Part shown: in pieces, positions 53,331 to 56,491 of the stretch
Layout: each line of letters starts with the position of its first letter
Numbering within the stretch: the stretch's first letter is position 1
DNA from: a bacterium
GTDB taxonomy: Bacteria; Patescibacteriota; Gracilibacteria; Peribacterales; Peribacteraceae
Assembly (NCBI GenBank): GCA_027592135.1
Contig: JAQCIJ010000003.1
Coordinates: forward strand, 1 to 63,341
Direction of reading: 5' to 3'
Length of the DNA: 63,341 bases
Notes under the pieces: model-generated
The model's database searches: none
Told to the model about the DNA's origin: nothing
What the model saw: only the letters and a program-made list of their open reading frames with translations
Position numbers and translations under genes: made by a program

Positions 53331-54656
53331 TTATTCTCCAAGGATTTCCAGTAGTTGGAGGGGATTTTTAGAGGTTTTTAGAGAGACCTTTCGTATGGTT
53401 CCTTCGTGCTTTGAGGTGACAGTAAGCGTTCCTGTGCCAAATCTGCTATGAATATCTTTTTGTGTGATCGCGAGATAGGGAAGGATTTCGTCGATCTTTG
53501 AGAGATCTATTACTATTTTTGTAGAGTAGAGCACTTCTTCTATCCTCTGATGAGCAATAGCATGGGTAATTGCTGCCGCAGTAGAGCTCAGAAGATACGC
53601 ACTCCCCCTCGTTGCAGTGACAAGGCCTCTTTTTCTCCCCGAAAGCATGGTACTGCGAATGAGCCAACCATTTGTGGTGTATTGGTTTCGCTCTAGCATA
53701 GTGTCGTCATGTCGAATATCAATAGAGCTAAACCGTTTGTCGAGAATACGTTTTGTAATTGTCGATGAAGGCAGAGAGCTTTCGTACGCTGTATGCACTC
53801 TATCAAGTATGGTTTGTAGTTGGATAGTGTCATCCATCGATCCATCAATTAGGACATTAAGTAGAGATCCTGAACTATCAATTTGGATAGTGGAAGGTTG
53901 CTCCAGTAATGGAAGAAGGTCGTAACGAAAGCTTACGCGCTCTCCAAGTGTGGTGAGTGTTGTAGCCAGCACTCCTTCGAGAATTACTGCATCGTCTTCC
54001 GGTAGATTGTTCATTAGTGTATAAAAAGACCCCGCGAAGTTCCTTCCTGAAGCTCTTAGAAAAGCATCAGGCATGTTTGGAATTCTCATTGGGGTATTGG
54101 CAAACCCCGATCGATCTTGTGTGTGTGCGATATGTATTGCGTCACCATCGTACGTGACTGCAATGGCATTGCTGTCTTCTACAAGTAGCGCTTTACTTAT
54201 GCGAGAAAGTATATTTACACTTTGCCGTAGAGAAGAAGAGGGGAGGTATGTCCATGGTGTACCGTACCCCTGCTCTATCGCAAGCTTTCTAAATGTCGTA
54301 TCAGTGTTCAGGGAGTCTTGTTGATGATGCACTTGTTGCAGCACTTCTGGGCTGCTTGCATTGAGAGCATACGGGCTCGTCGGATCTGCAGAGAATATCA
54401 CAGCATCGAAACTTTCGAAGATCGCTATTGCTTGAGTATCTGTGGGTATCTGCTCTTCGATAAATGGGAATTGCCTGAGGGAATGCTCTGTTGGATGAAA
54501 GATAACCGCATGCACTCCCTCTTTTGGTAGGAAGTCAGCAGGGCCTTTTCCGAGTAAATTTACGTTCCATATAGCGCCAAAAAGACCCGCCACTATGAGG
54601 GCACTTGCAACCATTGCTGCAACAATCAAAATAGCTGTACGAAGCGAATGATTCAT
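53331..54656 (-). CDS. Exported or anchored hypothetical protein (441 aa)
   Basis: An N-terminal membrane helix (TAILIVAAMVASALIVAGLFGAI) is followed by an external region with the motif GPADFLPKEGVHAVIFHP and mixed alpha/beta sequence without cysteines. The general plan resembles DUF3352-like proteins, but I am not sure of this. It precedes secF and tig on the same strand, so it may be an exported-protein quality or envelope factor; that is only a context guess. Confidence 0.6.
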   Translation of the reverse strand: MNHSLRTAILIVAAMVASALIVAGLFGAIWNVNLLGKGPADFLPKEGVHAVIFHPTEHSLRQFPFIEEQIPTDTQAIAIFESFDAVIFSADPTSPYALNASSPEVLQQVHHQQDSLNTDTTFRKLAIEQGYGTPWTYLPSSSLRQSVNILSRISKALLVEDSNAIAVTYDGDAIHIAHTQDRSGFANTPMRIPNMPDAFLRASGRNFAGSFYTLMNNLPEDDAVILEGVLATTLTTLGERVSFRYDLLPLLEQPSTIQIDSSGSLLNVLIDGSMDDTIQLQTILDRVHTAYESSLPSSTITKRILDKRFSSIDIRHDDTMLERNQYTTNGWLIRSTMLSGRKRGLVTATRGSAYLLSSTAAAITHAIAHQRIEEVLYSTKIVIDLSKIDEILPYLAITQKDIHSRFGTGTLTVTSKHEGTIRKVSLKTSKNPLQLLEILGE

Positions 54657-54750: not shown

Positions 54751-54779
54751 TTGCAGGTTTCGCTTATGCCACGTACAAT
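54751..54779 (+). promoter_or_regulatory. Promoter of the orphan 400-nt transcript
   Basis: TTGCAG (54751-54756), 17-bp spacer, TACAAT (54774-54779); predicted start near 54786. Confidence 0.6.
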
Positions 54780-54785
54780 AATCTG

Positions 54786-55187
54786 ATTTGCTTCAAAAGG
54801 CGAATCAGACACAAAAACAGATCATTTACAACACACCAATACAAACAGAAACAAGGCCCCGGGAGGGCACTGCGCATGGACAACCGTGCTCACTGCCCTC
54901 TCTGCTCTGTGATGTCGTCTTATAGATGAGAGGTTGCTCTATAAGATGCTTCCCCTAATTCTCTATGGTTCCCTTAGCTCACGCTTTGTCTTGGAGTCTG
55001 TTCCGGAGGACTCGTCGGGTAGCGAGTATAAACGAGATACCGTAACAAGGCAGGAGTTCGAGATTACCTCATCTCACTATATCTTTCTTAGGCTCGTGAC
55101 TCCCTTCACTTAGAATAGTTACAGATAGCTACCGAAAGATTCAATGCAAAGAAGGCCAGAGTGTATAAGTTCTGGTCTTTTTTGTTT
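54786..55187 (+). ncRNA. Unidentified structured RNA, about 400 nt
   Basis: A 578-bp stretch without a believable gene holds a promoter, several strong hairpins and a terminator. Helices include ATT-TGC / GCG-AAT at 54786-54805; GAGGGCA / TGCCCTC (54863-54900) enclosing GCATGG-ACAA-CCGTGC; CTTATAGA / TCTATAAG (54919-54945); GAGTC / GACTC (54994 region) and GAGAT / ATCTC near 55070. A CA-rich, unpaired stretch lies at 54808-54856. Size suggests RNase P RNA or tmRNA, but I could not find their conserved cores, so the identity stays open. Confidence 0.5.
55151..55187. terminator. Bidirectional terminator
   Basis: GGCCAGA / TCTGGTC with a 10-nt loop and six T on the + strand; on the reverse strand it is followed by TTCTTTG. 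It would end the orphan RNA and the TPR operon. Confidence 0.85.
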
Positions 55188-55234: not shown

Positions 55235-56491
55235 TTACAACGCCAACAATTTCTCCTTCACCCCTGGAAGCGAGGGATTCATCTCGAGTGCTTTTTGCCA
55301 TGCTGCTTTTGCTTCGGATGTTTTTTCGAGTTGGGCAGCGATTGTTCCGAGCAGTTCAAAACTGCGTGCGTTGTCTGGCCATTTTTCTGTAGCAAGTTTT
55401 GCTTTAGCGAGGGCTGCTTCTGCTTGTCCAAGTGCAGCTGCTGCGGTCACATACCCCTGGAAGCTTTCGAAGGTCGCATCTGGGTCATTGGTTAATGCAT
55501 CGTATTGATCGAGTGCGAGTCCTGCGTTGCCAATTTCTAATGCATAGCGTGCTATAAGTCTGCGCACTTCACCTTGTGGAGCAAAACCGTTTGTCAGTGC
55601 ATATTCGAAGAATGTAATAGCATTTTGATATTCATGTAGAGCTGCGTACGACCTTGCAAGGAAGTATTGAATCTCTGGCTTTTGTGGATCGAGGGAATAC
55701 GCCTGCTCGAGAGATGCAAGTGCTTGCTCTGGCCTCTCAGATGTAAGTTCGCAGTATCCTTGTACTACCCAGGCGTCACGATAGTCTTCTTTAGAAGATG
55801 TGACCTGAATAAGAAGTGGGAGAGCCAATTCACATTCTTGTACTTGGGCTAATGCACGGGAGAGCAGAGTGATCAGATGAATATCTGTACCACTAGGGAA
55901 CAGGGCAAATTCATCATAGGCTGCCTGGAGTGTTCGGGCATAACTTCGCAGAACTGGATCCCATCCATTAGTGGTAAGAGCGATTTCCTGCATTGCTCGA
56001 TCGTGACTTCCTTGGATAAGAGCGAGCAGCGCAAGCCCGTAGTGTTTTTGTGGAGAATCTTCTGCACTATCTAACACCTTTTTTGCTTCGACTAATTCTC
56101 CAGATCGCAGTTGAATAATCACTTCAATAAGTAGTATATCTTCTGGTCTGGCTCCTGCACTTTTCATCTGTTTTACTGTAGAACGAATTCCTTTGATGTC
56201 TCTCCGTTGCAGTTGTGCCTTCGCAAGTTTACGCAGTGCCACTAAGCCACCTTCACTTTTTACAGCTTTTTGATATTGTTCCTCGGCCTCCGACCATTCT
56301 CCACGCAGAGCAAATATATCTCCTTGTCGTAAGTGCAGTAACGAAGCATCTCCATGATCCATAGGAATAGTATTTATTATAGGGATAGGTGCACCCAGTA
56401 GATCTGTATCCACAAATTGTTGCCCTCCAAGCTGCAGAGTGGACTGTGTTATCTGCCACCAGAGGAATGCTATCAAGAGACCAGCACACAT
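55235..56491 (-). CDS. Membrane-anchored TPR protein
   Basis: A 418-aa protein with an N-terminal helix and about ten tetratricopeptide-like helix pairs (for example RGEWSEAEEQYQKAVKSEGG, PEQALASLEQAYSLDP, KTSEAKAAWQKALEMNPSLPG). TPR arrays bind other proteins, so it is probably an envelope scaffold. From ATG 56491 the helix starts abruptly; in frame upstream are IKIPPR and IIAPILLAA, with an ATA at 56534-56536 and an ATT at 56528-56530, so a rare non-AUG start giving a proper positively charged N-terminus is possible. Confidence 0.75.
   Translation of the reverse strand: MCAGLLIAFLWWQITQSTLQLGGQQFVDTDLLGAPIPIINTIPMDHGDASLLHLRQGDIFALRGEWSEAEEQYQKAVKSEGGLVALRKLAKAQLQRRDIKGIRSTVKQMKSAGARPEDILLIEVIIQLRSGELVEAKKVLDSAEDSPQKHYGLALLALIQGSHDRAMQEIALTTNGWDPVLRSYARTLQAAYDEFALFPSGTDIHLITLLSRALAQVQECELALPLLIQVTSSKEDYRDAWVVQGYCELTSERPEQALASLEQAYSLDPQKPEIQYFLARSYAALHEYQNAITFFEYALTNGFAPQGEVRRLIARYALEIGNAGLALDQYDALTNDPDATFESFQGYVTAAAALGQAEAALAKAKLATEKWPDNARSFELLGTIAAQLEKTSEAKAAWQKALEMNPSLPGVKEKLLAL

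Follow-up and report, generated by a model that had tools for sequence, protein, structure and literature searches.

A putative structured RNA of about 400 nucleotides in the Peribacteraceae and in further families of the Gracilibacteria

The locus and its transcription signals

The window, that is, the stretch of 63,341 nucleotides of contig JAQCIJ010000003.1 (assembly GCA_027592135.1, family Peribacteraceae) analyzed here, contains two minus-strand genes, one for a 441-aa protein (53331–54656) and one for a TPR protein (55235–56491), which flank a region (54751–55187) displaying the features collected in Table 1. The 441-aa protein has no Pfam match; a similar-sized gene occupies the equivalent place in the complete genome G031. 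The claim that this region is gene-free agrees with what we found, in that no ORF of more than 60 aa lies entirely within it and its two ORFs of about 60 aa have no Pfam match. Neither a conserved reading frame nor a domain that would identify a protein-coding gene was found, no formal score of ORF conservation having been computed; the covarying paired bases and the indels seen across relatives were also counted against such a gene.

The promoter of the original prediction (TTGCAG, 17 nt, TACAAT) is present and is kept in the alignment of close relatives, where the −10 element reads TACAAT, TAAAAT or TATAAT with TTGC(AG/TA) located 17 nt 5' of it. A generic promoter scan overlooks this pair because TTGCAG is a poor fit to TTGACA. 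A scan also recovered the predicted terminator (55146–55185, 17 pairs and a T-run). In the absence of expression data the start of the transcript, at about 54782–54786, is inferred.

Table 1. Predicted features of the RNA region, with positions in the window
Feature	Position	Strand	Basis
Promoter: −35 TTGCAG (54751–54756), 17 nt, −10 TACAAT (54774–54779)	54751..54779	+	Sequence reading; −10 and TTGC at equal spacing in three congeneric genomes
5' hairpin TCTGATTTGCTT..AAAGGCGAATCAGA, at the inferred 5' end	54782..54809	+	Fold; paired bases co-change in relatives
CA-rich unpaired spacer	54810..54855	+	Fold; A/C-rich linkers also in copies of other families
P0 hairpin GGGAGGGC..GCCCTCTC (nested GAGGGCA stem)	54861..54902	+	Fold; alignment
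P1 5' strand CTCTGCTCTGT, closing the core	54900..54910	+	Double changes relative to the paralogue CTGCTAAGC/GCTTGGCAG
P2 hairpin, loop GAGGT (54930–54934)	54916..54948	+	Both-side changes in 9 of 11 pairs; kissing pairs covary
P3/P4/P5 arm: P3 (54960–54964 with 55005–55009), P4 (54967–54972 with 54993–54998), P5 (54976–54978 with 54983–54985)	54960..55009	+	Compensatory changes in all three helices
H-type pseudoknot: S1 (55011–55015 with 55022–55026), S2 (55018–55021 with 55038–55041), A-rich crossing strand between	55011..55041	+	Alignment A5; family set; class-wide permutation
P1 3' strand ACAAGGCAGGA (class consensus AAGCANGGCAG)	55045..55055	+	Pair counts in alignment
P6 hairpin GAGAT..ATCTC, loop ACCTC (55066–55070)	55060..55075	+	100% of cells paired; double changes in 4 of 5 pairs
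P7 hairpin GGCTCG..CAGATAGCT	55091..55131	+	Motif in copies of other families, outside the search models
Intrinsic terminator	55146..55187	+	Scan; T-run downstream in 110 of 116 copies (17 in shuffled sequence)

Predicted structure

The RNA strand of the region has a folding energy of −129 kcal/mol (z = −4.55); none of 100 dinucleotide shuffles was as stable, which bears out the hairpins proposed earlier; among these the nested GAGGGC...GCATGG...GCCCTC stem corresponds to P0, and the proposed CA-rich unpaired segment could be placed between it and the 5' hairpin. A compensatory change in the 5' hairpin is exemplified by genome G014 (GATTTATCC/GGATAAATC). The 3' side of P0 overlaps the P1 strand, by only 3 nt in the copy of the window. 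Within the core the loop of P2 is the kissing partner of the P6 loop, and strongly conserved single-stranded stretches include AAACAAG and CGATG. The family form of P7 is GGCTCAG..CTGATAGCC with an AT bulge, which is conserved.

This fold was read by eye from an alignment of 20 copies (A5) and then counted. Its 55 pairs are formed in 91.2% of cells, as compared with 44–50% in controls in which the partner strand was slid. Part of this excess is expected, the alignment used for counting being also the one that supplied the fold; the covariation is not so explained. Covariation had been named at the outset as a check on the structure, and changes on both sides occur in 31 of the 55 pairs. In all, 134 cells are changed in this way, compared with 42.6 in shuffles; the pseudoknot and the kissing loop covary as well. 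The pseudoknot is paired in 99–100% of the cells of A5, with double changes. RNAalifold, run on the whole alignment, recovered the fold only partially.

R1, the covariance model that was built from A5, contains neither S2 nor the kissing pairs. Even so, these are formed in nearly all of 96 family copies, with the exception of the outermost kissing pair (62/90). In other families the kissing pairs are TGACC/GGTCA, GACTA/TAGTC and CGACGAT/ATCGTCG, among others, and those of the pseudoknot TTGGC/GCCAA, TGGTG/CACCA and TTGGA/TCCAA. In class-wide permutation tests the summed fit of the RNAs' own partners exceeded that of all 50,000 permuted pairings for the kissing loop and of all 20,000 permutations for the pseudoknot; the segments were hand-picked, and one family entry, mistyped in the run that gave the pseudoknot result, is left out of the kissing test. 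A likeness of the Peribacteraceae kissing loops to a Shine-Dalgarno/anti-Shine-Dalgarno pair was dropped because the kissing sequences of other families are unrelated.

Two competing folds are suggested by the many copies in which a 5' arm could also pair with the core-closing strand. Within the 170 nt upstream, 61% of 105 loci have a strong complement to the 5' strand of P1, as against 8% of shuffles, and several copies carry in the 5' arm a near-exact repeat of the 3' P1 strand (for example GCAAGGCAGG in L127). In a third of the copies, among them that of the window, this complement is weak or lacking; the window shows the alternative pairing only weakly. That the RNA may exist in two folds, with the P1 strand paired either 5' or 3', is inferred and is less sure than its action in trans, inferred below.

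Leader sequences such as TTGTTCTTTGAAAACTGC, upstream of the RNA in L127, L128 and L199, resemble the boxA antitermination signals of rRNA operons. The string is clear in these three loci, all of other families, but we make no claim for it because so loose a pattern is likely to occur by chance.

Distribution

By DNA search the RNA was found in 16 of 58 genomes, its own included; congeneric genomes also carry a second, diverged copy. R1 places it in 71 of 74 family genomes, which represent 39 of 40 genera and frequently have two copies, and in 56 of the 57 family genomes of good quality; G030, a family genome rated as 100% complete, gives no R1 match. Absence from relatives would have argued against a functional RNA, and the conservation of the core across the family removes this objection. 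Most of the named records that contain the core sequence are Candidatus Peribacteria or Peregrinibacteria, a few being labelled "bacterium" or Patescibacteria and one Uhrbacteria, and the host is a relative of Candidatus Peribacter, which has the NCBI lineage Peregrinibacteriota.

Weak R1 matches in other families of the class share the core together with a 3' hairpin (CTCAG..CTGATAG) that is absent from the model. The models were extended stepwise, R2 following R1 and R3 being built from 15 copies of other families. R3 matches 98 of 353 class genomes and R2 90, with about 149 combined, as counted from two lists; some three to four chance matches are expected per search at the threshold used. 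About 14 further families of the class share the architecture, usually with one or two copies per genome and several with two, and P7 and the terminator, which lie outside the models, recur in their copies. Absences in the class-wide search are weak evidence because only seven to nine candidates per genome were scored. Outside the class nothing convincing was found in 380 genomes of the phylum (two matches, E 0.003–0.004), and none was found in viral contigs and plasmids. In a tree the copies fall partly into two lineages and partly group by genome, a pattern such as repeated duplication or conversion would give.

Gene neighborhood

In 81 of 113 loci, the window included, the gene downstream is encoded on the other strand, and for the upstream gene this holds in 77 of 112. 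The neighbors differ between families: several have a gene for an MscS-type channel, one has murI and another ssb; in family f20 murI closely follows the RNA in the same orientation. Since the neighbors differ and the adjoining genes are mostly on the opposite strand no single gene is served, nor is there the constant same-strand downstream gene that would mark a cis-regulatory leader. To judge from this arrangement the RNA is a stand-alone gene.

Synteny with relatives, another check proposed at the outset, was met with in the complete genome G031, where two copies (L119/L120, G031:C1:749000-786000) face each other 28 kb apart. One of them has the gene neighborhood of the window, namely trigger factor, secF, a gene in place of that for the 441-aa protein, and the TPR gene. 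Facing copies some 26–33 kb apart occur at similar spacing in several other genomes, and the block between the copies of G031 includes gyrA, ruvA and pgi, as named from reading the translations. A gene for an MscS-type mechanosensitive channel adjoins the RNA in several families (L186, L188, L190–L192, L198) and is also near the second Peribacteraceae copy (L119); it may mark the ancestral position of the RNA.

Comparison with known RNA families

Against Rfam 15 the window yields two tRNAs only. At E values up to 10 the core region gave nothing but chance-level matches, such as ar35 (16.7 bits against a threshold of 45), and 14 related loci searched at E up to 1 gave no match at the RNA, so that the relaxed-threshold comparison originally suggested brings in no known family. 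Like RNase P RNA (RF00010) the present RNA is about 400 nt long with several helices and long-range pairing; the region nevertheless has no match to RNase P RNA models at E ≤ 10, and the genome has its own rnpB elsewhere (G000:C8:1326-1722, 131 bits). Size and the pseudoknot recall tmRNA (RF00023), but the tRNA-like domain and tag frame of a tmRNA are lacking, ARAGORN finding only the two tRNAs in the window and none at the RNA, and ssrA is likewise elsewhere (G000:C38, 75 bits). Whether both genes exist elsewhere was a further check named with the original prediction. With OLE, raiA, GOLLD and ROOL the RNA shares large size, conservation, a transcription unit of its own, an elaborate fold and a function that is hard to guess, but it matches none of their Rfam models and occurs in other lineages; this comparison was by model score only.

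Two possibilities had been raised, a divergent essential RNA or a new large RNA. The latter is supported by the lack of an Rfam match, the occurrence in 71 of 74 genomes and the covariation; the former does not hold in the form of RNase P RNA or tmRNA. No published description of such an RNA was found in the literature searched, which excluded the main 2017 survey of large RNAs, and to judge from the models it matches no known family and appears to be undescribed.

Possible function

Since the RNA stands alone, with the downstream gene most often on the opposite strand, we read it as acting in trans, most likely as a ribonucleoprotein or regulatory RNA whose function and partner remain to be shown. 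It would be the RNA part of a ribonucleoprotein, or a regulator docking on a protein or cellular machine, in a role comparable to those of 6S, Ms1 and other housekeeping RNAs, without control of a neighboring gene. Less surely, the P1 strand would provide a co-transcriptional folding step or a switch, its partner being either the 5' arm, P0, or the 3' strand of P1. We consider it rather probable that the locus is an independently transcribed gene of this kind, specifying a structured noncoding RNA of about 400 nt, of an undescribed family, trans-acting and with a P1 strand that pairs in two ways; the promoter, the terminator and the folded core are established by comparing sequences, and trans action, partner and function are inferred, without support from expression data. 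Only tentatively would we go further and propose a core RNA machine of the whole class, with the spread of a housekeeping RNA, whose central strand toggles the RNA or its ribonucleoprotein between two states in ultra-reduced bacteria with neither an SRP pathway nor a detectable 6S RNA.

One might have expected a 6S-like RNA, for the Rfam model (RF00013) detects no 6S RNA anywhere in the genome, the window included, and the present RNA resembles 6S RNA and Ms1 in standing alone, in being near-universal in its lineage, in occurring as two copies in many genomes and in serving no gene. 6S RNA itself is known in two copies, 6S-1 and 6S-2. The Ms1 RNA, of about 300 nt, illustrates that a longer RNA can replace 6S (PMC9130861). 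Binding to RNA polymerase and a tuning of global transcription are nevertheless inferred, and unlikely, as the long hairpin with a central bubble resembling an open promoter is not seen, the core instead uniting a closed multi-helix junction, a pseudoknot and a kissing loop, and the 6S model does not match. The compact tertiary core, with its kissing loop, its pseudoknot and the conserved single strands AAACAAG and CGATG, would also suit a ribozyme or other catalytic RNA; catalysis is inferred and we think it more doubtful still, given that the RNA resembles no catalytic Rfam family, that no conserved cleavage-type motif was recognized, that the transcript ends at a terminator of its own and that no substrate is apparent. 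As a riboswitch or attenuator in the leader of the next gene it could draw on the riboswitch-like combination of alternative P1 pairing and a terminator, and on murI in family f20, but this is improbable, being contradicted by the orientation of the downstream gene in most loci, the window included, and by neighbors that differ between families. While there are no transcript data to exclude a conserved noncoding DNA feature or a chance structure without an RNA product, the promoter, the strand-specific T-run terminator (110 of 116 copies) and the covariation all fit an RNA, and little credence can be given to this explanation.

A divergent SRP RNA of the lineage was considered because the Rfam models (RF00169/RF01854) detect no SRP RNA in the window's genome; matches to an SRP RNA motif pattern were not SRP-like and looked coding or due to chance. 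We regard it as largely refuted, and the least credible explanation of all, since SRP proteins were not found in this nearly complete genome: the best E value with E. coli Ffh was 0.13, as compared with 5e-97 for the GyrA control, and SRP GTPase motifs were absent. Moreover the near-invariant Ffh-binding motif is missing from the RNA. As an observation in its own right, neither an SRP54-type GTPase (Ffh/FtsY) nor an SRP RNA was detected in the genome (G000, 98% complete; loci L222–L301, the window, L123 and L124), although trigger factor and SecF are present; on these searches the lineage may be without an SRP pathway.

Significance

Large structured RNAs that occur throughout a class are rare, and several of the known ones have proved to do something basic. 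That 71 of 74 reduced genomes retain this putative RNA speaks for its importance, essentiality not having been shown. These genomes, about 1 Mb in size, have lost many pathways and still keep it, so that it probably serves the cells in a way that is not easily dispensed with. For a branch of the bacteria whose RNAs have hardly been studied it offers a defined candidate, together with its proposed fold and a model for further searches.
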